From a virus, in the IMG/VR virus record IMGVR_UViG_3300006868_003369, positions 1 to 22,645 of that record: a stretch of DNA of 22,645 nucleotides; one strand, 5' to 3'. Each line of letters opens with the position of its first letter. Position 1 is the first letter of the stretch. Shown here piece by piece: positions 6,686-18,714 of the stretch. The notes under the pieces are model-generated. The model had not been told where the DNA came from, ran no database searches, and was given only the letters and a program-made list of their open reading frames with translations. The translations under genes and the position numbers were made by a program.

Positions 6686-7477
6686 TTACTTAGAGTACAT
6701 TCCTGGAGGTAGAGTTCCAAAGTAAGGATCAAATTCAAGCAATTTACTCCAATCATCTATATCTGGAGATGATTCTCTCCAAAAATTCCATAAACCTTCG
6801 TAACTAGATTTGTGGAACGTATCAATGTGATTATCATGAATGCTAGATCCCAATTCAATCTTATACATAAAAACTGGAATTGCATAGGTATTACCAGAAT
6901 TATAAATTAGATCATCGGCAACAGCTCTTGGTTTAACTCCATTATCGATTTTATACTTATCACCACGAACATGATGGTTTATAAGTTTTGTTGCATGATG
7001 ACGAGTAATTAAATAACATGCTGTAGAAAAATCATTTACAAATCTTTTATGAAGTTTTACATGAATTTCAGATGGATTAATTATAGCCATCTGAACTACA
7101 TCAAAATCATAGGGAATATGACTAAAAAGTTCTTTCCATGTAAATCCCCAATGCCTAATAGGTGAAAGATCACAATCATCTTCCATGATCAAAGCATATG
7201 GTTCATCTGTTTTTAAAAATTCAACCAATGCTTTTAAGTGAGATGTTGTACATCCCACCTCGCCAGATGACATATTATCGGGATAACGACCCTTTAAAAT
7301 TCCACCAAGATCTCTACCATCTCTACCATCATATGCAGAGATACGTGTATAATTTTTAATACCCCAATATTCAAACTGTTCTTCCATATACTTTCTTCTT
7401 TCTGGTTGCTCATCCAGATTTAGATAATATACTGGGGGTAATCCCTTTGCTTTATGTAATGACTTGTTTTTATCCAT
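6686..7477 (-). CDS. Glycosyltransferase family 25 protein
   Basis: A GT25-type (LPS biosynthesis) transferase of 263 aa. The opening VYYLNLDEQPERR (about 16-28), the GEVGCTTSHLKAL block (about 72-84) and the MEDDCD acidic motif (about 97-102) are the family's conserved elements; the acidic motif probably binds the nucleotide-sugar metal. It would add a sugar, often galactose, to a growing oligosaccharide at the cytoplasmic face of the membrane. It is the last gene of the glycan operon and overlaps the glf stop by eight bases. Its substrate cannot be read from sequence; UDP-galactofuranose from the adjacent Glf is one possibility. No terminator is obvious after it. Confidence 0.85.
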   Translation of the reverse strand: MDKNKSLHKAKGLPPVYYLNLDEQPERRKYMEEQFEYWGIKNYTRISAYDGRDGRDLGGILKGRYPDNMSSGEVGCTTSHLKALVEFLKTDEPYALIMEDDCDLSPIRHWGFTWKELFSHIPYDFDVVQMAIINPSEIHVKLHKRFVNDFSTACYLITRHHATKLINHHVRGDKYKIDNGVKPRAVADDLIYNSGNTYAIPVFMYKIELGSSIHDNHIDTFHKSSYEGLWNFWRESSPDIDDWSKLLEFDPYFGTLPPGMYSK

Positions 7478-8561
7478 TTTCTCCTTTAAATTTATTCATT
7501 GCAGACTCAATTACAACATGCATGTCCATATACTTATACTCTGCTAATCTACCACCGAATATTATATTTGTCAATGATTTTGACTTTTTAAAATATTGTG
7601 AATAGATATTGGAATTTTTTTTATCATTTATTGGATAATATGGTATTCTCCCCCTCTCATATTTTAAAGGATATTCTCTACTGATAACAGTTTTTTCTGT
7701 GACAATTTTTTCAAAATGTTTATGTTCATATACCCTGGTGTAAGGAACATCCTTATCACAGTAATTAAAAACTGCATTTCCTTGATAGTTTACTGTATCT
7801 AAAATCTCTTCATCAAAGCGTAGTGATCTATACTCAAGTTCCCCATACTCATATCCAAAGAATTCATCTATACATCCAGTATAAACAACTTTATGTGCTA
7901 ATGAATTGAAGTAATCTCTATCTTTAAAATAATCTGCGTTTGTACGAACTTCAATATTATCTAACATATTTTTAAATATATTGGTATAACCGCCTATAGG
8001 TATACCCTGATAACGATCATTAAAATAATTATTATCAAAAGTAAATCTTAACGGCAACCTTTTAATTATGAATGAAGGAAGATCTTTAGCCTGTTTTCCC
8101 CATTGTTTTTCTGTATAATCTTTTATAAAAGTGTAGTAAATGTCTTCACCAACCAAAGATAAAGCTTGTTCTTCAAGATTTTTTGGTAAACCATGAAACC
8201 TTTGATTCTCTATAATTTCTTTAACTTTTTCTGGACTAGAAACACCCCATAACTCATAAAAAGTATTCATATTAAAGGGTAGTGAATATATTCTACTTTT
8301 AGATACTGCTTTTGGTGAATTTATATAGTTGTTAAATTCAGCAAATCTGTTAATAAAATTCCATACTATTTTATTGCTTGTATGAAAAATATGTGCTCCA
8401 TACTTATGAACATTTATTCCTTCAATATTTTCAGTATAACAGTTACCACCAATATGATTTCTTTTATCAATAATAAGACAGGACTTGCCCGCATCAGTGG
8501 CAAGTCTTGCAAAAGTAGCGCCAAAGAGACCACATCCAACAATCAGATAATCATACTTCAT
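7470..8561 (-). CDS. glf: UDP-galactopyranose mutase
   Basis: A flavoenzyme that interconverts UDP-galactopyranose and UDP-galactofuranose, the donor for galactofuranose residues. The N-terminal FAD motif is VGCGLFGATFA (about residues 8-18), followed by KRNHIGGNCY, YGAHIFHT, DYTEKQWG and GIPIGGYTN, all characteristic of Glf. The C-terminal GRLAEYKYMDMHVVI is the second FAD contact. The length, 363 aa from ATG 8561, matches bacterial Glf. I use 8561 rather than 8573 because MKYDYLIVG is the usual start. It overlaps the DUF3431-type gene upstream by 11 bases. It implies that galactofuranose is part of the phage-directed glycan. The gene is AT-rich relative to the middle of the operon. Confidence 0.95.
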   Translation of the reverse strand: MKYDYLIVGCGLFGATFARLATDAGKSCLIIDKRNHIGGNCYTENIEGINVHKYGAHIFHTSNKIVWNFINRFAEFNNYINSPKAVSKSRIYSLPFNMNTFYELWGVSSPEKVKEIIENQRFHGLPKNLEEQALSLVGEDIYYTFIKDYTEKQWGKQAKDLPSFIIKRLPLRFTFDNNYFNDRYQGIPIGGYTNIFKNMLDNIEVRTNADYFKDRDYFNSLAHKVVYTGCIDEFFGYEYGELEYRSLRFDEEILDTVNYQGNAVFNYCDKDVPYTRVYEHKHFEKIVTEKTVISREYPLKYERGRIPYYPINDKKNSNIYSQYFKKSKSLTNIIFGGRLAEYKYMDMHVVIESAMNKFKGENG

Positions 8562-9993
8562 AGGTAAAAACAAGTCCCCAAAATCTTTCCATCTGATATC
8601 CCATCTCAGGATCTATAGGACAGAATTCAGACTTTGGTGAGTCAATTGGATCTCGGAGATGCCATGGTATTGGTCCTGTGTTACCCAGAAGTTTTAATGT
8701 AAGTTCATCAGGTTCTTCTGGACTATACTCAAAGATATCAAAAATGTTTTGATAAAACTCTTTAGATCGTTTCCTGATTTGATCTCTAGAAACACAGAAC
8801 TGTGCTCCAGAACCAAATTTAAATGTCTTTAAGTTTTCTGGTGGTTGATCACCAAAGACTTTCTCAAACGCATACCGTATATTTGGAAAAACTTTATGAT
8901 ATGGTTCACGCTCATAGTCAAAGTCTCCCTCAACAATTCTAGTAGAAATCCAGAAGAAGTCGGGAATATTTTCATTAGAGTGTAGAATGTAATTTAAATA
9001 CTCATACAAATTAGGACTATGTGGATTTAATGGACCTCCTTGTAAAAATATTGTGTAGTCTGCAAGATTATCATAGTTGTTGATAATGTGATACAGATAA
9101 GTATGTGATTCTCTACCAATATTCTCTAGGCGAATAGACCCCTCAATCTCATCATCACCCTTATTGTAAACAGTGAGATAATCTTTATATTTGTTTGACC
9201 AACGCAAATCTTCGTTGTATCTTGCAACAACGATTTCTAAATAAGACTTTTCCTTATCATCAATCAAATCAGATAACATCTTGAAAAGGATTTCAGTCTT
9301 CTTCTGACTGTCAACTTCATATCCATTGTGCCACGAACAAGCATTTCTAAAGTGTAAAAACTTTCCACCACAATGCAGTTCAAATCCATATCCACCAGTC
9401 AGTTCAGGATCTTGAAGATCAATACCCTTATACTCTTCTGGATACTCAACACCAGTATCTTCATACTTCAGACCAGCACGAAGTAGTTTATATGTACCAC
9501 CGCCAGTATCCAACATTTGACCATCTATAGTTTGTGGGAAAAAGTCAAACTCAATATCTTCGACAGAAGATTTCTTACAAAAGAAAAGACCTGGCCAAAT
9601 ATAATTAACATCTCCTCTAGATTGAAGACATCCCATGACATCATTATTAAACATCTCTTCAGTGGGATTAAAATCATCAATCAAGAACATATCATGATCC
9701 AAGAACAAACCAATACAATCATCTTCTTCAGAAAGAATTAAATTTTCATATGCCCACTTTGCAGCCTGTCCATGATAAAAACTCGGAGATCCTCCTGGTT
9801 TAGATACATGTAAATGCAGACTTGCACCATGTTTTTCACAAACTTTTTTAAAATCATCATAGTATTGTTCATCTCTAGTATCATAAGCAACGCTTATAAC
9901 TAAGTCTCCTACTATGAATTTTTTTAATGATCGAATCTGATAGTCCAGAAGATCTGGACGATTAAATACACAACAAATTACTTTCGTTTTCAT
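8551..9993 (-). CDS. Two-domain protein: glycosyltransferase-like N-half, DUF3431-type C-half
   Basis: 480 aa. Residues 1 to about 235 look like a GT-A glycosyltransferase-like domain (opening KVICCVFNRPDLLDYQIRSL, with an acidic LFLDHDMFLIDDF motif near 113-125). From about residue 250 the sequence matches the DUF3431 pattern: IVVARYNEDLRW, VYNKGDD, ENIGRESHTYLYHIINNYDN and TIFLQGGPLNPH. DUF3431 proteins occur in bacteria and fungi next to glycan genes and have no established reaction that I know of. A fusion of the two suggests linked sugar-transfer steps. The start overlaps the stop of the upstream gene by ATGA (9990-9993). Domain calls are from motif memory only. Confidence 0.75.
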   Translation of the reverse strand: MKTKVICCVFNRPDLLDYQIRSLKKFIVGDLVISVAYDTRDEQYYDDFKKVCEKHGASLHLHVSKPGGSPSFYHGQAAKWAYENLILSEEDDCIGLFLDHDMFLIDDFNPTEEMFNNDVMGCLQSRGDVNYIWPGLFFCKKSSVEDIEFDFFPQTIDGQMLDTGGGTYKLLRAGLKYEDTGVEYPEEYKGIDLQDPELTGGYGFELHCGGKFLHFRNACSWHNGYEVDSQKKTEILFKMLSDLIDDKEKSYLEIVVARYNEDLRWSNKYKDYLTVYNKGDDEIEGSIRLENIGRESHTYLYHIINNYDNLADYTIFLQGGPLNPHSPNLYEYLNYILHSNENIPDFFWISTRIVEGDFDYEREPYHKVFPNIRYAFEKVFGDQPPENLKTFKFGSGAQFCVSRDQIRKRSKEFYQNIFDIFEYSPEEPDELTLKLLGNTGPIPWHLRDPIDSPKSEFCPIDPEMGYQMERFWGLVFTYEV

Positions 9994-11356: not shown

Positions 11357-11924
11357 TATTAATTATTTGATAAACTTCTTTCCAATTTTTTACACGAAGT
11401 CCAGTCCATTCTTTATTGTATGGATGATCCATGATGATGCTATTTAGACCCACTCTTAGACCAGATTCCGCATTACTAACAGAATCTTCAATCCAATAAT
11501 ACTTCTTATCTTTATATCTATCAAAAAGATATTGCTCTTTCCCAACAGTAAAATCTAGGGCACAATCAATAAAGTCAAAAACATCACCAAACAAATGAAT
11601 CAAATTGTCCTTTCTTAATTTCTGAGCATACTTATCTTTATCAAGACAACTTATAACCTCAAACTTCCAACCAAGTTCATTTAATTTCTTTACATACTCA
11701 ACAGAGTCCCGAAATGCAGGAATAAATCCTACACAACCAGACTCGTTGAATCTCTTTATTTGTAAATATGCTTCCTGTTCAGTGATACCAAAACGCAAAG
11801 TTTGAGTGTAATGATTAGATGTATTCTCTACTCTCTTGTATCCATGTTCACCCATCCACACATCAAAAGCATATGCCCAATCAAGAAGAACGCCATCACA
11901 ATCAACTATTATCCGTTTATCCAT
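11340..11924 (-). CDS. HAD-superfamily hydrolase-like protein
   Basis: The start is taken at ATG 11924 (194 aa); an upstream in-frame TTG at 11942 is less likely. HAD motif I is DCDGVLLD at residues 8-15, with both catalytic aspartates. A later VISCLDK fits the motif II region, and YYWIEDSVSNAESG fits motif IV (E/D-D followed by Asn), so the fold appears complete. HAD enzymes of this kind are phosphatases. In a sugar cluster a hexose-phosphate or sugar-phosphate phosphatase is plausible, but a 5'-nucleotidase is also possible given the PNP gene next to it. It overlaps the nucleotidyltransferase gene by 16 bases. Confidence 0.8.
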   Translation of the reverse strand: MDKRIIVDCDGVLLDWAYAFDVWMGEHGYKRVENTSNHYTQTLRFGITEQEAYLQIKRFNESGCVGFIPAFRDSVEYVKKLNELGWKFEVISCLDKDKYAQKLRKDNLIHLFGDVFDFIDCALDFTVGKEQYLFDRYKDKKYYWIEDSVSNAESGLRVGLNSIIMDHPYNKEWTGLRVKNWKEVYQIINNDSTS

Positions 11925-12628
11925 TTGTATATTTGATCCCAAGTTCCGAGGTCAACATAATCTTCAACTTCAATTGCTCTAGAGTTATATAGAGGTGTGT
12001 TTTTAATCTCACCAACCAACTGTCGATGATTGAGAGTTGATTTCTCCATAAACTCAATACACTGAGTAAACACTCTTTTTCTAAAAGCAAATGCTGTCCA
12101 GAAAGCATTAAATCTAGAATGATTCTCCTGAGGTTTATCTTCATACTCTTGAACCAGATCGTTATTAATACACAAAGCTCCTTTGGTTCTTAACATATCA
12201 GGACTACTCTCGCGCTTATAGAAGAAGGTAAATCCAGTTTCATTAAGACTATCGCTGACAAGATCCAGAATATCCTGAGAAGACTTCATCTTCATAAAAG
12301 TATCTGGAAGAAGAACCAGATTCTTTTCACCAAATAAGTGACTGGCACTCTTGATTGATCCTGTATATTCTATCTCTGCTGGATTGAAGTAAGTAAAAGA
12401 GATATTGTATCTGGACTTATATCTGCTCAAATACTTAATAAGTTCAGTTTTGTTTTCGTTGAGTGTAACGACAAACTCAACATCTCTTCGCCCGTAGTTA
12501 GAGAATAAATCAAAACTATAATCAATTAAAGATTTATTCTTTTCAATAGAATGAATCTCTTTTGGATATGGTAAAGATAATCTTGTTCCTTCACCAGCAC
12601 AAGGAAGAATAACAGTGAGATTAGACAT
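11909..12628 (-). CDS. Sugar-1-phosphate nucleotidyltransferase
   Basis: The N-terminus, VILPCAGEGTRLSLPYPKEI (residues 6-25), carries the GxGTR-L-x(n)-PK signature that binds the incoming NTP, followed by SLIDYSFDLF. A TGSIKSA and LLPDTFMKMK segment supplies the usual sugar-binding and metal Asp. This is the RmlA/GalU-like fold that makes an NDP-sugar from NTP and sugar-1-phosphate. The sugar and the nucleotide cannot be read. At 239 aa from ATG 12628 it is short, a catalytic core without a C-terminal extension. Starting at 12652 would extend it across the epimerase end. It lies between the epimerase and the HAD gene; both neighbours fit nucleotide-sugar supply. Confidence 0.8.
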   Translation of the reverse strand: MSNLTVILPCAGEGTRLSLPYPKEIHSIEKNKSLIDYSFDLFSNYGRRDVEFVVTLNENKTELIKYLSRYKSRYNISFTYFNPAEIEYTGSIKSASHLFGEKNLVLLPDTFMKMKSSQDILDLVSDSLNETGFTFFYKRESSPDMLRTKGALCINNDLVQEYEDKPQENHSRFNAFWTAFAFRKRVFTQCIEFMEKSTLNHRQLVGEIKNTPLYNSRAIEVEDYVDLGTWDQIYKWING

Positions 12629-13529
12629 TTTGTGTTGCAACCCACTCTTCAAGTTTTACAGATGGTTGCCATCCAAAAGTTTTACAAAGTTTTTGATTAT
12701 TAGCAAGACTTAAACGCGCTTCTGCTGGGCGTGGTGGAATATTTACAGTATTATCTGAAATCATTGCAGCAAGATCATTTACAGAATAATTTACACCACA
12801 ACCGACATTATAAACTTGTCCAAATGCATCCTCTTCAGGATTACTAATTGCTGCCATGATATTAGCATTTACAACATCACCAACGTATGTAAAGTCCCTA
12901 CGTTGCTCCCCATCACCCACAATTGTTAAAGGTTCACCAGCAGCACGTTGTCTCAAAAAGATCCCTACAACAGGCGCATACTGCCCTCTGAGAGGTTGAC
13001 GTTCTCCATATACATTAAAGTATCGGAAGATAACAGTAGGAAGTCCATATAAATCTGTATACATTGAACAAAGTTTTTCTCCATTTGTTTTGGATATTGA
13101 ATATGGATTCAAACAATCATCGGGTTGAGTCTCCACATTAGGAAGTTCATTTTTCAATCCATAAGCAGAAGAAGTGGAAGAATACATAACACGTTTTACA
13201 CCAGCCTCTCTTGCACACTGAAGAACTGTACATGTTCCAACAGAATTAATACTTACCGCTTCAATGGGATTTTTAATAGCAGGTTGAATACGTGCTTCTG
13301 CAGCAATATGAAACACATAGTCTACTCCATCATAGAGAGGACGTGTGTTTTCATAATCACGAATATCATACTGATAGTTTGATACTTTTTCACTCTCATT
13401 CCAATAAAATTGATCATGAGCATCAGAGTACTCATTATCAATTACAACAACTTCATGACCGAGTAAAAGAAGACGGTCTACAAGATTAGATCCAATAAAA
13501 CCTGCGCCGCCAGTTACTAAAGATTTCAT
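12621..13529 (-). CDS. NAD-dependent sugar epimerase (UDP-hexose/HexNAc 4-epimerase type)
   Basis: An extended short-chain dehydrogenase of 302 aa. It has the NAD-binding GGAGFIGSN at residues 7-15, HIAAEARIQPAI, SSTSSAYG with the catalytic Ser/Thr, and the YSISK catalytic Tyr/Lys. The late PPRPAEARLSLANNQK block resembles UDP-N-acetylglucosamine 4-epimerases of the WbpP/Gne kind, so production of UDP-GalNAc or UDP-Gal is the best guess. That would supply both the GT6 donor and the Glf substrate in this operon. The start at 13529 overlaps the upstream gene by ATGA. Its GC content is higher than that of the fcl-GT11 stretch upstream, suggesting a separate origin. Substrate not certain. Confidence 0.88.
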   Translation of the reverse strand: MKSLVTGGAGFIGSNLVDRLLLLGHEVVVIDNEYSDAHDQFYWNESEKVSNYQYDIRDYENTRPLYDGVDYVFHIAAEARIQPAIKNPIEAVSINSVGTCTVLQCAREAGVKRVMYSSTSSAYGLKNELPNVETQPDDCLNPYSISKTNGEKLCSMYTDLYGLPTVIFRYFNVYGERQPLRGQYAPVVGIFLRQRAAGEPLTIVGDGEQRRDFTYVGDVVNANIMAAISNPEEDAFGQVYNVGCGVNYSVNDLAAMISDNTVNIPPRPAEARLSLANNQKLCKTFGWQPSVKLEEWVATQNV

Positions 13530-14167
13530 ACAATTCGTTCTGGTAAAAAATAATTTGAATAATATTTAAAACATTCACTAGTTGGATATGACGTTAATTT
13601 TCCCCGCGTTCCATTTGAACTAGATTGACAAAATAGGGGAGAATCAAAACTATAGACATTGTAATGTTTTTGAACATCAGTAAATCCAACGTCTATATAT
13701 CCTTCAGTCTTAAATTGGTGATATGCTATTTTTGTACATACTGACACATACTCATCAGATAAGTATAGAATAGCATGAGTACCCAGCATATTATACACCC
13801 TTAACATATCATCGTCAATAATATCATATTGAACAAAAGGACCAGAGTGTCCATTCATTCTACCCCAAGATGATATTCCAAGATATACCGCATCTGCATC
13901 ATCTGGAAAACATATTTGTGGATCGAAATCATAAACTTCAGCATCATCCTCGATAATGATGAAAGGTGGATCGATCTCCTTTAATGCATTGTGATGAGCC
14001 ATAGAACATCCACCTCTATTCCCAGATGAATGTAAAAATCCAGGAGACCTGATAATATTTTTAAATCCTAACTCACCTAAAGATTTTTCTATCTTTTCTT
14101 TTTTATCAACATCTTTATCCAAATTGATGTAGATTATTGGTATCTCTCTAAGATCTAAGCTCTGCAT
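13526..14167 (-). CDS. GT25-like glycosyltransferase
   Basis: A 213-residue protein from ATG 14167; an in-frame TTG start at 14185 is less likely. IPIIYINLDKDVDKKEKIEK opens the protein, then GGCSMAHHNALKEI and FIIIEDDAEVYDF. This is the same order of elements as the GT25 protein at 6686-7477 (YLNLD, GCTTSHLKAL, EDDCD), so I place it in or near GT25, as a diverged copy. It would be a cytoplasmic sugar transferase. The ends overlap the neighbours by 20 bases (start) and ATGA (stop). It directly follows the GT6 gene. Donor and acceptor are unknown. Confidence 0.75.
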   Translation of the reverse strand: MQSLDLREIPIIYINLDKDVDKKEKIEKSLGELGFKNIIRSPGFLHSSGNRGGCSMAHHNALKEIDPPFIIIEDDAEVYDFDPQICFPDDADAVYLGISSWGRMNGHSGPFVQYDIIDDDMLRVYNMLGTHAILYLSDEYVSVCTKIAYHQFKTEGYIDVGFTDVQKHYNVYSFDSPLFCQSSSNGTRGKLTSYPTSECFKYYSNYFLPERIV

Positions 14168-14846
14168 GATTTTTCTTAAGTGCAATAATTGTAGGATTTT
14201 TATAAGGATACTGTTGTGATCCTATAAACTCCTCAGCAAAACAATAGTTTGGATTCAATGAAAGGGTGGGTGGATTATCAATCAAATATCGATTCATTTG
14301 AGATTCATCGTGCCATAAGGCAATCACATCATTTCTCAAATCTTCATTAACTCTATCAGCAATAACTTCCGCCATGGCAATAAAATTTTTAGTTTTTCCA
14401 CCATTAAATCCGCCAGCATAGTAATATTCACCCTCTTCACCTTCAGGAACATACGCTAAGCATTTAGGATTTCTATCATAAGATCTTTTTTCCTTTGGAT
14501 AAAAAGATTGATAAGGATGCATTGTTGCAACTAAATCATCAAGAATTTCTTCTCCAACAGGTGCATCAATTCTCATATCAGCATCAAGGTAAAAACAATA
14601 GTCATGTTCAAGGATAAAATCTTTCTCTTTGACAAAATAATTATATCTTTTCAAAGTTGGTATTGGCCAAGGCTCGTGTTCTATTTGATGAACACGAACA
14701 TTGTCAGAAGTTTCTACTTCATGATCAGTAAATAAAAGACAATTTACTTCTGCTTCTGGAATAAATTTTTCTGCAATATCACTATAAAGCTTCTCAACAA
14801 AACGGAGATACTTATTCGTAGCAATTGTTAAAATACAAATTTTCAT
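14148..14846 (-). CDS. Glycosyltransferase family 6 (blood-group A/B type alpha-1,3-transferase)
   Basis: The signature elements of GT6 are present in order: PWPIPTLKRYNYF at residues 59-71, FYLDADM at 85-91, YYAGGFNGG at 142-150 and ALWHDESQMNRY at 176-187. GT6 includes mammalian ABO and alpha-1,3-galactosyltransferases, which add Gal or GalNAc alpha-1,3 to a galactose that often bears an alpha-1,2-linked fucose. The metal site is DAD, like the DVD of animal enzymes; bacterial members that I recall mostly have NxN. It has no membrane anchor and is only a catalytic domain (232 aa). It follows a GT11 gene, whose product would make the acceptor branch. A GT6 homologue has been reported in cyanophage P-SSM2 (from memory). 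Confidence 0.88.
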   Translation of the reverse strand: MKICILTIATNKYLRFVEKLYSDIAEKFIPEAEVNCLLFTDHEVETSDNVRVHQIEHEPWPIPTLKRYNYFVKEKDFILEHDYCFYLDADMRIDAPVGEEILDDLVATMHPYQSFYPKEKRSYDRNPKCLAYVPEGEEGEYYYAGGFNGGKTKNFIAMAEVIADRVNEDLRNDVIALWHDESQMNRYLIDNPPTLSLNPNYCFAEEFIGSQQYPYKNPTIIALKKNHAELRS

Positions 14847-14852
14847 TTTTTC

Positions 14853-15641
14853 TCATATAATTTTCCAATGTTCACAGTATATATCATCAGTGATATAACC
14901 CTTTAATGAACCACCAAACCAATTTGAAGGTGCTATAGTTTTTTTACTGTTAGATAACCATGATCCCCACCAAGAAAAAGTAGAATTGCATATAATGTGA
15001 TAACTACACATTGTCATTAAACACATATCAACAAAACAATTATTGGATTCAGAAATTAAAAATCTATCTCCAGAAAATATCTGTTGTTTTTTTGCCCACT
15101 GAACATCGTCAGTAAAAACTAAAACTATATTATCTTTAGGAAGAAGATCTAATGCATTTATATAATATTCAATGTCTTGTACTGGATGATTTGGATTTGT
15201 AACATAATCATCTCTTCTAATATGGAGAGAAATAACATCAGATGACTCTAAAGAATCAAACAAATCTTTAGATGGATTAAAAATTTCTGGAATAAAAGTA
15301 AAATCTTTTTTTATTTCATTCCCAATATGTTTAAAATATTTTTCACTTTGAAAATATCCATAAAAATCAATATTATCTTTTGGTGGATTTTCAAAAAGAT
15401 CTTTATCAAAATGAAAATGTTTTTCCTGAAATATCTTATATGAACTTATTTTTCTATCACAAGTTAGATTAAAACATTCGTCAAATCTACTGCGAAGATT
15501 ATATCTAGATCCAAATGTTTCTGGTGGAGCTATTTTAAATGGTCTGGAATGTTTGTTGGATATACCCTTTAAAAAAGAATACTGGAACATCTGATTACCA
15601 AGATGTCCCAGATTACCAATATGATTAAATGAAAAGCTCAT
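14853..15641 (-). CDS. Glycosyltransferase family 11 (alpha-1,2-fucosyl/colitosyltransferase)
   Basis: 262 aa with the GT11 landmarks: LGNQMFQYSF at residues 14-23, SLHIRRDDYV at 138-147 (donor-binding HxRRxDY) and CNSTFSWWGSWL in the C-terminal third. GT11 enzymes transfer L-fucose from GDP-fucose in alpha-1,2 linkage to galactose. A related E. coli O55 enzyme (WbgN) uses GDP-colitose instead. Because a ColD-like gene lies immediately upstream, the true donor may be GDP-colitose. The start overlaps the ColD-like stop by ATGA (15638-15641), so the two are coupled. The gene is very AT-rich (about 20% GC over 15301-15420). Family assignment is firm; donor is inference. Confidence 0.9.
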   Translation of the reverse strand: MSFSFNHIGNLGHLGNQMFQYSFLKGISNKHSRPFKIAPPETFGSRYNLRSRFDECFNLTCDRKISSYKIFQEKHFHFDKDLFENPPKDNIDFYGYFQSEKYFKHIGNEIKKDFTFIPEIFNPSKDLFDSLESSDVISLHIRRDDYVTNPNHPVQDIEYYINALDLLPKDNIVLVFTDDVQWAKKQQIFSGDRFLISESNNCFVDMCLMTMCSYHIICNSTFSWWGSWLSNSKKTIAPSNWFGGSLKGYITDDIYCEHWKII

Positions 15642-16801
15642 AATAGAGAAAAAATATCGCTAAGTAAATTTATTTCTTGTTCTCCAATAAAATGATTATT
15701 CCCCAAGTAAATTCCATTATAATGAACCTTATCAACATTAAGTTCTTTTTTCTGTGTGGTTATAGAATAATCTTTTAGGAATGGTTGCTTGAGTAAATTT
15801 CCACCAATAATAGGACGGTGTTCAATACCATTTTGATCAAAAACTTTTCTCAACCTATGAGCATACCTAACGTCCTTACAAATAATTGGAAAGCAAAAAT
15901 TACTCACTCCCTCATGATACTTAGGTACATAGAATAAGTTTGGATACTTTTCCAACAAAGAAATAAACATTAAATAATTTTCATTTCTTTTTTCAATATA
16001 TGAATCAAGTCTCTTCAATTGAGATAGTCCAAGAACTGCACTAAGTTCATCATTTCTAAAATTATATCCATCAGTGACAAATAAAAATTGTTTAGAAATA
16101 TCTGGATACATCTCTTTATATCGATCAAACATTTCAGATTCCCTTGCAAGACCATGAGAACGTTTGATTCTCATCAAATCATATAGTTCATAATTGTTAG
16201 TGGAAACTATTCCACCTTCAATTGTAGACATATGATGTCCAAAATAAAAACTAAAAGTTGCTCCAATACTATCAGATCCTACTTTAGTTCCATCAGGATT
16301 TTTACATCCATGAGACTCGCATACATCATCAATAATTAAAGCATTTGGAAATAATTCAGAATACTTACTACTATTTGCAGGAAATCCTATCAAATGTGTT
16401 GTAAAAATTAATTTAATATCTGGATGTTCTTTTGCAATGTACTGCAAATCTTCTTCACAAAAACTAAAATTATTCAAATTAATATCACAAAAAATTGGTG
16501 TAAATCCCAACTGAATAACTGGAGCAATATTTGTTACCCAAGTATCTGCGGGTACCAATACTTTATCACCATCTTTTAATCCATAATATTCTTTTACTGA
16601 TGCCAGTAAAAGATAATTTGCGGTACTTCCAGAAGAAACAAACAATGAATGTTTACAACCCAACCAATTTGACCATTCCTTCTCAAAACTCCTAACTTTC
16701 CCACCATTAGTAAAACGATCAGAAGTTAATACAAACTTTGCTAGATTATACCTATCACCTAAGGTGATATTATTTTTCATCAAAGGCCACTTAAATTGCA
16801 T
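15638..16801 (-). CDS. colD: GDP-4-keto-6-deoxymannose 3-dehydratase-like (ColD), aminotransferase fold
   Basis: A PLP-dependent DegT/DnrJ/EryC1-fold enzyme. VSSGSTANYLLLAS near residues 57-70 binds the cofactor phosphate and LIIDDVCESHG carries the PLP Asp. The position of the Schiff-base Lys is His: FYFGHHMSTIEGG, with His189 in place of Lys. This substitution and the surrounding motif match ColD, which removes the 3-hydroxyl of GDP-4-keto-6-deoxymannose on the way to colitose, rather than perosamine synthase. The CDP-hexose E1 enzymes also have His here but use CDP sugars, and no CDP-sugar genes are present. ATG 16801 gives 387 aa, the length of ColD; a start at 16867 would read antisense-like sequence over fcl. 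It lies between the fcl/colC-like gene and GT11. Confidence 0.85.
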   Translation of the reverse strand: MQFKWPLMKNNITLGDRYNLAKFVLTSDRFTNGGKVRSFEKEWSNWLGCKHSLFVSSGSTANYLLLASVKEYYGLKDGDKVLVPADTWVTNIAPVIQLGFTPIFCDINLNNFSFCEEDLQYIAKEHPDIKLIFTTHLIGFPANSSKYSELFPNALIIDDVCESHGCKNPDGTKVGSDSIGATFSFYFGHHMSTIEGGIVSTNNYELYDLMRIKRSHGLARESEMFDRYKEMYPDISKQFLFVTDGYNFRNDELSAVLGLSQLKRLDSYIEKRNENYLMFISLLEKYPNLFYVPKYHEGVSNFCFPIICKDVRYAHRLRKVFDQNGIEHRPIIGGNLLKQPFLKDYSITTQKKELNVDKVHYNGIYLGNNHFIGEQEINLLSDIFSLL

Positions 16802-17723
16802 TTTTCTTATACCAATCGTATGTTTGTGAAATTCCATCAGATAAACTAATTTTTGGAGTCCAACCAAGATTCTTTATAATATCAACATTTAAAACTTTTC
16901 TTGGGGTTCCATTTGGTTTTGTTATATCCCAATCAATATCACGATTATATCCAACAATACTTGAAGTCATTTCAGCAAGTTCTCTAATCGTTATATCTTC
17001 ACCTGTACCAACATTTATATGATCAGGTTTATCATATTTTTTCATAGCAACATAACATGCCTCTGCAAGATCATCTACATGTAAAAACTCTCTTTTAGCA
17101 GATCCATCTCCCCACATCTTTACTTCATAATATTCGCTATGAGAAATTGCTTTATGAAACTTAGCAATCATTGCAGGTAAAACATGAGAAGTTTTTAAAT
17201 CAAAATTGTCATTAGGACCATAAAGATTTGTGGGCATCAAAGAAATTGCATTAAACCCATATTGTTGAGCATACGCTTGACACATTTTCACACCAGTGAT
17301 CTTAGCAATAGCATACCCATCATTTGTAGGTTCAAGAGGACCAGATAACAATTGATCTTCTGTAATTGGTTGGTGTGCATACTTAGGATAAATGCAAGAA
17401 GATCCTAAGAAAAGAAATTTCTTAACGCCAAATTTGTGAGAGTATTTAATTAAATTAGTTTGTATCTCTAAATTATCTGTAATAAAATCTGCTTTATATT
17501 TTTTATTTGCCATGATGCCACCAACTTTAGCAGCAGCATCAAAGACATATTCTGGTTTATGAGTTTTAAAAAAATGAGAGGTTTGAATTTGACTAGTCAA
17601 ATCAACTTCATTTCTAGTTATAGGAATAATATTTGTATATCCCTTTTCTTTTAAATTTCTAATGATAGCAGATCCAACCATTCCGTTGGCACCTGCAACT
17701 ACAATTTTAGAATTACTGTCCAT
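16791..17723 (-). CDS. fcl: GDP-L-fucose synthase or GDP-L-colitose synthase (Fcl/ColC family)
   Basis: An epimerase/reductase of the short-chain dehydrogenase family, 310 aa from ATG 17723 (17741 also possible). Motifs follow E. coli Fcl closely: [11 protein letters not shown] for [13 protein letters not shown] with the catalytic Cys, [11 protein letters not shown] with Tyr and Lys, [12 protein letters not shown], and SHVLPA with the catalytic His. It performs C3/C5 (or C5 only) epimerisation and 4-keto reduction of the Gmd product. ColC has the same fold and residues and acts on the ColD product; motifs alone cannot separate them. Given the adjacent ColD-like gene, ColC is a serious alternative, and a dual role is possible. 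It overlaps gmd by 11 bases and the next gene by 11. Confidence 0.92.
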
Positions 17724-18714
17724 AGATACACATGTCCTCAATCAGTTCATCAAAAGAAATTTTAGGTTCCCATCCTAATTGTTTTTTAGCTTTTGAAGCA
17801 TCACCAAGTAGTGTTTCTACTTCAGCAGGGCGAAAATATTTATCACTAACTCTAATTACAGTTCTCTTAGTATTTTTATCAATACCAACTTCATCAAGTC
17901 CTTCACCTTCCCATACAATATTCATACCAAAATAAGGAGCAGCCTTTTCAACAAATTCCCTAACTGAATATTGCTGCCCAGTTGCAATAACATAATCATC
18001 AGCAGTTTCTTGTTGAAGCATTAACCACATTGCTTCAACAAAATCTTTAGCGTGACCCCAGTCACGCATGGCATTCAAGTTTCCGAGATTAAGTACGTCC
18101 TGTTGCCCAACTGAAATTCGTGAAAGTCCTCTAGTGATTTTTCTCGTGACAAAAGTTTCTCCTCTTCTAGAGGATTCATGATTGAAAAGAATTCCAGAAC
18201 TTGCATGTAGTCCATACGATTCTCGGTAGTTTCGGACAATCCAGTATCCGTATACTTTTGCAACTCCATAAGGCGATCTTGGATAGAAGGGTGTTTTTTC
18301 ACTTTGTGGTATTTCTTGAACTTTACCAAACATTTCAGATGTTGATGCTTGATATATTCTAGTTTTAGATTCCATTCCCAATAGGCGAACCGCTTCCAAA
18401 ATACGAAGAGTTCCTAGCCCATCAACCATTCCTGTATATTCAGGAATCTCAAAAGACACTTTTACATGACTTTGAGCACCTAAATTATATATTTCATCTG
18501 GTTGTACTAATTGAATAACACGAACAAGATTAGTAGAGTCTGTTAGATCACCGTAATGTAATTTAATACTATCATAAATGTGATCGATTCTATGGGTATT
18601 AATGAGAGATGCTCTCCTAACAATTCCATGAACTTCGTATCCTTTAGACAAAAGAAGTTCTGCTAGGTAAGATCCATCTTGCCCAGTAATACCAGTAATT
18701 AAAGCAACTTTCAT
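17713..18714 (-). CDS. gmd: GDP-mannose 4,6-dehydratase
   Basis: Converts GDP-D-mannose to GDP-4-keto-6-deoxy-D-mannose, the common precursor of GDP-fucose, GDP-colitose and GDP-perosamine. The 333 residues start [20 protein letters not shown], then [38 protein letters not shown] and [10 protein letters not shown] with the catalytic Tyr and Lys; [16 protein letters not shown] follows, all diagnostic of Gmd. It lies two bases after the 91-aa gene and is the first sugar gene after the promoter at 19234-19262. The GDP-mannose itself must come from the host, as no manB or manC is seen. Confidence 0.96.

Follow-up and report, generated by a model that had tools for sequence, protein, structure and literature searches.

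In enteric bacteria, 3,6-dideoxy sugars determine serotype. Among the described enzymes closest to the one presented here, E1, ColD, and SpnQ have in common a histidine at the lysine position, according to a review (PMC8987622). As described there, four cysteines hold a [2Fe-2S] cluster in E1 and SpnQ, which also need a reductase, whereas ColD has no iron-sulfur (Fe-S) cluster, ends its reaction by hydrolysis, and regenerates its pyridoxamine 5'-phosphate (PMP) with glutamate. Here, we describe a gene cassette in a 22,645-base stretch of viral DNA (IMG/VR record IMGVR_UViG_3300006868_003369; "the window" denotes this whole stretch) whose nearest named relatives, for this cassette, are cyanomyoviruses of Kyanoviridae. 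The cassette encodes a GDP-mannose 4,6-dehydratase (Gmd), an Fcl-family enzyme, and a ColD-like dehydratase of the DegT family. We propose that it provides a phage route from host GDP-mannose to a 3,6-dideoxy-L-sugar, with GDP-L-colitose as the likeliest product, and give this reading a probability of roughly 0.6.

The dehydratase gene, predicted to encode a nucleoside diphosphate (NDP)-sugar 3-dehydratase dependent on PMP or pyridoxal 5'-phosphate, occupies 15638..16801 on the minus strand and specifies 387 residues from ATG 16801. The frame is open to TTG 16867, a start that would add 22 residues, the first 20 of which have low predicted local distance difference test (pLDDT) scores (block means of 57 and 50); because this fits the shorter protein, we take ATG 16801 as the start. 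The protein contains FSFYFGHHMSTIEGG, whose first histidine (codon at 16235..16237, minus strand) aligns with His188 of ColD and with the lysine of three outgroup proteins, and a second conserved histidine stands next to it. The original prediction had placed a histidine at the Schiff-base lysine position and numbered it 189; the placement is borne out by these alignments, and the number is right from ATG 16801 (the residue is 211 from TTG 16867). Histidine occupies the position in 132 of 135 aligned rows, with lysine in the three outgroup rows, and the HH pair is retained in all 37 viral rows, one being the window refetched (L005); among the cellular rows, the pair is to some extent built in, since one of the two scan patterns contains HH. 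Titles of ColD structures in the PDB include H188N and H188K variants.

ColD is the closest characterized relative by both sequence and predicted fold, in agreement with the earlier description of the enzyme as ColD-like. A phmmer search against the PDB returned four ColD sequences as the best matches (E values of 2.7e-50 to 5e-49), followed by 9wvy, a putative NDP-4-keto-6-deoxyglucose-3-dehydratase, and then by E1. The AlphaFold2 model has a mean pLDDT of 91.6. Foldseek ranks 1 to 12 for this model are all ColD chains, and VIA-align gives a Z-score of 49.0 for ColD (root-mean-square deviation of 1.9, 375 residues aligned), 44.9 for E1, and 43.0 for GDP-perosamine synthase. At the four columns of the E1 Fe-S cysteines, cysteine is found in none of the 37 viral rows, window included, and at none of these positions in ColD, whereas the four RfbH/E1 rows have three to four; their absence from the window enzyme fits the ColD mode rather than the E1 mode. 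The window enzyme is similar to Escherichia coli ColD (WbdK; PDB 2gms, 2r0t, 3b8x, and 3gr9) in its exchange of lysine for histidine, its lack of Fe-S cysteines, its fold, and its R-P loop (considered below), and unlike it in sequence (31% identity), in forming a separate clade, in having glycine for Ser187, and in being phage-borne. With RfbH/E1 and SpnQ, it shares the exchanged lysine and the fold but not the four cysteines. From its residues, its fold, and ColD chemistry, we infer the dehydratase step. Assignment as a ColD-type GDP-4-keto-6-deoxymannose 3-dehydratase is a well-supported prediction, within which 3-dehydratase chemistry is highly probable and GDP-4-keto-6-deoxymannose is the likely substrate.

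The dehydratase gene follows gmd (17713..18714, minus strand), whose product scores 550.1 bits on TIGR01472 against a cut-off of 415, and a gene for an Fcl-family epimerase/reductase of the GDP-L-fucose synthase type (16791..17723, minus strand, with its frame open to TTG 17741). It precedes a gene for a GT11-family glycosyltransferase (14853..15641, minus strand; 91.8 bits on PF01531, gathering score of 23.9). All three open reading frames of the minus-strand row that had been proposed from the DNA alone were found, as was the GT11 gene proposed to adjoin the dehydratase, a relative of which is also present in phages S-CAM7 and ACG-2014f. Successive genes in the order gmd, fcl, dehydratase, and GT11 overlap by 11, 11, and 4 nt, suggesting co-translation.

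The same genes recur together in other viruses. S-CAM7 and ACG-2014f, which make up 49 of the 79 phage records matched by the window dehydratase, share the order gmd-fcl-dehydratase-GT11. The host given for S-CAM7 in record MT586120 is Synechococcus WH7803. Across a viral set of 34 loci (two isolates and 32 IMG/VR contigs), counting as neighbors genes on the same strand within 4.5 kb, 32 have gmd near the dehydratase and 31 have fcl there; gmd was missed in L032 and fcl in L020, both at contig ends. Clustering at 95% identity groups these loci, together with the window, into 19 clusters, 18 with gmd and 17 with fcl. The order is rearranged to gmd-colD-fcl in L017-L019 and to gmd-GT11-fcl-colD in L030. 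Because the order varies and the association persists, a shared pathway, rather than inherited position, is argued for. Four of the loci (L008-L011) are 92-94% identical to the window in the dehydratase, 82-85% in gmd, 64-65% in fcl, and 51-52% in GT11, a contrast that we read as a sign of gene-by-gene exchange. One match outside the viral set, L038 (PACT01000001.1, a Crocinitomicaceae metagenome-assembled genome [MAG]), agrees with the contig of viral locus L019 in both length and match coordinates; it probably belongs to a phage and was binned by mistake into a Bacteroidota MAG.

In the route that we propose, Gmd, assigned by a curated family model, would make GDP-4-keto-6-deoxy-D-mannose from host GDP-mannose. 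The DegT protein with histidine for lysine would bind PMP and form a ketimine with the C4 ketone, upon which the histidine would take a proton and the C3 hydroxyl would leave. Having no Fe-S cluster, the dehydratase would end by hydrolysis like ColD, and glutamate would restore PMP. The Fcl-type enzyme would then invert C5 and reduce C4 to give GDP-L-colitose, and any substrate not taken by the dehydratase could be converted by this same Fcl-type enzyme to GDP-L-fucose. Finally, GT11 and the other transferases of the run would attach the sugar to a glycan at the surface of the infected cyanobacterium.

Several findings, on the dehydratase, on Fcl, and on the substrate, weigh against this reading. 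The dehydratase is only 31% identical to E. coli ColD, and Foldseek puts perosamine synthase (rank 13) above E1 (rank 18). In a tree of 54 of the 135 rows (beyond fixed references, cellular proteins were thinned at 62% identity and viral ones at 90%, and the fused open reading frame L040 was dropped), the 13 phage rows group in a single clade (100/100) separate from ColD proper. An approximately unbiased (AU) test, whose groups were named after the tree had been seen, rejects the 13 phage and five ColD-proper rows as one clade (p = 6.4e-6), and with it orthology of the window enzyme to ColD. Grouping with lysine-type aminotransferases, the outcome that would have refuted the original prediction, did not occur, and the histidine-type assignment was not refuted. 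Linkage also has exceptions in whole-record checks: L033 has gmd but no fcl, and L035 has neither.

In this tree, the phage enzyme is placed as its own clade near a large cellular clade. Proteins close to the phage clade include L039 and L061, which have gmd (57 and 54% identity) and a distant Fcl-like gene; a Streptomyces protein (L131) in the order gmd-dehydratase-fcl; and a huge-phage protein (L004) whose record has fcl and, across 642 kb, no gmd match at an E value of 1e-20. ColD relatives on plasmids (three records), 61-66% identical to E. coli ColD, lie in gmd-fcl-colD operons with the same order as the window.

With respect to the last step, the window Fcl falls below the NF047922 cut-off (444.3 versus 500 bits), as do those of S-CAM7 (421.8) and ACG-2014f (420.3); three proteins identified as ColC by their position in ColD-proper operons score 310 each on the same model. 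The window protein retains S107, C109, Y136, K140, and H179 of E. coli Fcl, which we take to be its catalytic residues. The ColC-position proteins are themselves of the Fcl family and keep the same residues, so these residues gave no separation of ColC from fucose synthase. Like ColC, the phage enzyme is an Fcl-family short-chain dehydrogenase/reductase (SDR) encoded beside the dehydratase; unlike ColC, it lies nearer to GDP-fucose synthases, and in a 45-row Fcl tree, it falls outside the ColC-position proteins, which form a group of their own. In that tree, the Fcls of phages that carry the dehydratase are interleaved with those of phages that lack it (seven changes, with 87 of 500 label shuffles as low). 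A ColC-type identity for the window Fcl, as the original prediction had it, is rejected by this placement. In two other phage Fcls (L022 and L029), serine replaces the catalytic Cys109 and the motif SASVYP is present, and epimerization may be altered in these phages.

Six cyanophages, S-SRM01, P-SSM2, S-SKS1, S-SCSM1, DSL-LC02, and DSL-LC03, similarly have a glycosyltransferase run headed by gmd and fcl; they differ from the window in having other genes there, and none of the six whole records contains a match to the dehydratase, a query that does find matches in other sets. Given these six phages and the interleaved Fcls, the dehydratase is an addition to a common gmd-fcl core. In DSL-LC03, which lacks the dehydratase, gmd-fcl is also followed by an annotated alpha-1,2-fucosyltransferase, and this counts against a colitose route. 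The known colitosyltransferase WbgN belongs to the GT11 family. Its natural donor in E. coli is GDP-colitose, and GDP-fucose is tolerated (PMC12723683); because WbgN accepts both donors, adjacency of the GT11 gene does not settle the sugar. Most probably, the Fcl of these phages is of a general GDP-fucose-synthase type and would reduce the 3-deoxy intermediate to GDP-L-colitose alongside GDP-L-fucose, with GDP-L-colitose as the main product somewhat favored.

One alternative is a division of labor in which Gmd and Fcl make GDP-L-fucose, as they do in other cyanophages, and the dehydratase product, GDP-4-keto-3,6-dideoxymannose, passes through another phage or host reductase to a sugar other than colitose, such as a D-3,6-dideoxyhexose. 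The interleaved Fcls point this way, as do a second SDR gene in the window (12621-13529) and L033, which has gmd and the dehydratase and, in 71,766 bases, no Fcl match at an E value of 1e-20. We consider it unlikely, however, given that 31 of the 34 viral loci, rearranged orders included, have fcl near the dehydratase, and that ColC-position proteins are Fcl-family members with the same catalytic residues.

The remaining evidence against a colitose route concerns the substrate, which could have shifted, since the nearby cellular clade is often found in heptose-type operons without Gmd. Of 555 cellular relatives, the best 80 loci (one of which is the phage contig L038) were scanned, and neighbor clusters were identified through one representative each. 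An HddA-like kinase is found in 52 of these 80 loci, an HddC-like nucleotidyltransferase in 25, a GmhA-like protein in 15, a nucleotidyltransferase fused to a GmhB-type phosphatase in 7, transketolase halves in 20 and 15, pyruvate dehydrogenase E1-like subunits in 13 and 12, and a B12 radical SAM protein in 33. Gmd of at least 45% identity occurs in only 6 of the 80, L038 included. Among the representatives, the NCBIfam cut-off was reached only by the GmhB part (TIGR00213, 154 versus 150) and by general phosphatase domains; because the others fall below, the HddA-, HddC-, and GmhA-type names mean likeness only. Many of these operons (within L038-L117, for example L093:6455-14861, L047, and L092) combine an Fe-S-free histidine-type 3-dehydratase with HddC- and GmhA-like genes and a split thiamine enzyme, together with Gmd- or Fcl-like SDRs and the B12 radical SAM protein, a combination suggestive of a pathway leading to a branched GDP-3,6-dideoxyheptose. 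In a separate setting, a ColD-clade protein on an Azospirillum lipoferum plasmid (L120), 49% identical to ColD, is encoded next to genes for the alpha and beta subunits of a thiamine E1 enzyme; it lacks the R-P loop, and no gmd lies within 6 kb of it.

This loop follows Arg351 in the window enzyme and reads R-P-x-x-x-G-N, as in ColD. The form is present in 44 of the 135 rows, and in 40 of these the retrieved DNA includes gmd (the window was assigned manually as gmd-positive, and E. coli ColD, used as a protein alone, is counted as gmd-negative). The longer RRGxxGGGN is found in 71 rows, 2 of them with gmd. The other 20 rows match neither form, and 3 of them have gmd. The R-P loop cannot serve as a diagnostic feature: the short form also occurs in L132, in an rfbF-rfbG setting, and gmd accompanies the long form in L060, L065, and L090. 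As a correlation, it supports a GDP-hexose substrate. A GDP-activated heptose or another 4-keto-6-deoxy sugar as substrate, with the linkage to gmd secondary, would suit the tree, in which one neighbor is the large cellular clade whose operons often include split thiamine enzymes and HddA-, HddC-, and GmhA-like genes. It is nevertheless improbable: no scanned neighbor in the window reaches a heptose-family cut-off, the substrate loop differs, and L039 and L061, which stand beside both the phage and the heptose-type clades, have gmd and an Fcl-like gene.

Two further identities for the window enzyme fare less well. In GenBank, its S-CAM7 counterpart is deposited as a putative CDP-4-keto-6-deoxy-D-glucose-3-dehydrase (record KU686212), and CDP-4-keto-6-deoxyglucose 3-dehydratase (RfbH/E1) indeed has the same exchange of lysine for histidine; yet the window enzyme lacks the Fe-S cysteines and scores 164.8 bits on the RfbH model against a cut-off of 423, no scanned neighbor reaches the CDP-glucose 4,6-dehydratase cut-off or is listed for glucose-1-phosphate cytidylyltransferase, and both tree and Z-score lie closer to ColD than to E1. 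We reject RfbH/E1 as very improbable on the cysteines and the model score. GDP-perosamine synthase uses the same substrate as ColD. Least probable of all is a GDP-perosamine-type aminotransferase, which has the same fold and comes next after ColD in Foldseek (Z of 43.0) but whose Schiff-base lysine is absent from 37 of 37 viral rows, histidine at that position being the ground on which we reject lysine-type aminotransferases, and PMC8987622 reports no transferase activity for ColD or E1 in conditions resembling those in which SpnQ showed it.

To place the colitose route among cellular genomes, a host set of 201 genomes (completeness not given) was taken from the family that holds a Prochlorococcus single-cell genome (G002). 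Gmd is present in 128 of the 201 at an E value of 1e-80, and a relative of the window enzyme in 2 at 1e-60 and in 14 (15 matches) at 1e-33. A second dehydratase tree, without L126 and L128, included these 15 rows. None of the 15 matches falls in the phage clade, which argues that the phage gene was not copied from the sampled host operons. Three (L141, L142, and L143) fall in ColD proper, with 59-62% identity to E. coli ColD, and L151, which adjoins gmd, joins the ColD-proper group at its base. A clear gmd-fcl-colD operon is seen at two of the three ColD-proper loci; at the third, fcl is adjacent and gmd is approximately 12 kb away. These two operons, in genomes G109 and G082, are like the window in their three functions and gene order and unlike it in their dehydratases, which belong to ColD proper (59 and 62% identity to E. 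coli ColD, approximately 32% to the window). Colitose-type operons appear from these matches to occur in the host family, and some of the contigs may be misbinned.

Other genes accompany gmd and fcl in cyanophage runs, among them a C-methyltransferase in DSL-LC02, an annotated GDP-mannose 3,5-epimerase in S-SCSM1, and a SIS-domain isomerase with a sugar nucleotidyltransferase in S-SRM01. We tentatively suggest, at less than even odds, that these runs form a plug-in system, in which a conserved core from GDP-mannose to deoxysugar is combined with interchangeable sugar-editing enzymes, and the rare sugar with which the infected cell is repainted differs from phage to phage; the window enzyme would then belong to a phage-owned, Fe-S-free 3-dehydratase lineage that reaches colitose without a dedicated ColC. 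If so, repainting could, for example, keep other phages from attaching.

Related genes were also seen elsewhere. In DSL-LC02, a C-methyltransferase (L137:7772-9010; PF08421/PF08484) stands between gmd and fcl, the place of the dehydratase in L017-L019. The 71,766-base viral contig L033 (8919-15974) has, besides gmd and the dehydratase, an RfbH-like protein (457 bits, cut-off of 423) and two adjoining acetolactate-synthase-like pieces, a possible yersiniose-type route to a branched sugar in a phage. Synechococcus phage S-B05 (L003:7845-9140) and Marine virus AG-345-D19 (L123:9001-10122) have an E1-type dehydratase with cysteine at three of the four Fe-S columns, by which it is judged a different dideoxy-sugar enzyme from that of the window. 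The matches of S-H68, S-B43, RB11-B, and RN05-S to the window protein cover that span too, again with 27.9% identity.

The rest of the glycan run, all on the minus strand, contains genes for a GT6-family glycosyltransferase (14148..14846, PF03414), an SDR nucleotide-sugar epimerase/dehydratase (12621..13529, PF01370) for which none of the 25 NCBIfam families shown reaches its cut-off, a nucleotidyltransferase-like protein (11909..12652; PF00483, 30.1 bits), a UDP-galactopyranose mutase, Glf (7470..8573, PF03275), and a GT25-family glycosyltransferase (6686..7477, PF01755). The window also has zwf and gnd, both reaching their NCBIfam cut-offs; two ferredoxins, one of plant type above its cut-off and the other weaker; a talC-like gene below its cut-off (221 versus 246 bits); and an alternative oxidase gene. 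The stretch comes from a virus of cyanobacteria, and its compact gene set most likely yields a rare dideoxy sugar for the cell surface, either colitose or one closely related to it.

The presence of gmd and fcl in cyanophage, as cell-wall genes, is already in print (PMC9602691). The claim that a dideoxy-sugar route was undescribed in cyanophage holds in that we found no paper on colitose in cyanophages, or on a phage colitose route, in the open-access literature; it fails in that the same genes are already deposited under other names, the ACG-2014f dehydratase as an aminotransferase or hypothetical protein. What the evidence puts as new is the pairing of a general phage Fcl with predicted ColD-like chemistry in a dehydratase lineage of the phages' own. 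In the records seen, histidine-type 3-dehydratases are labeled as aminotransferases, RfbH-type dehydrases, or hypothetical proteins, and the separate lineage would be useful for telling GDP-hexose from GDP-heptose specificity among them. Cyanophages have long glycan runs, and a predicted, checkable sugar gives one such run a testable output. A phage that makes a 3,6-dideoxy sugar in mid-infection could change how the infected cell is recognized by phages, grazers, and lectins.

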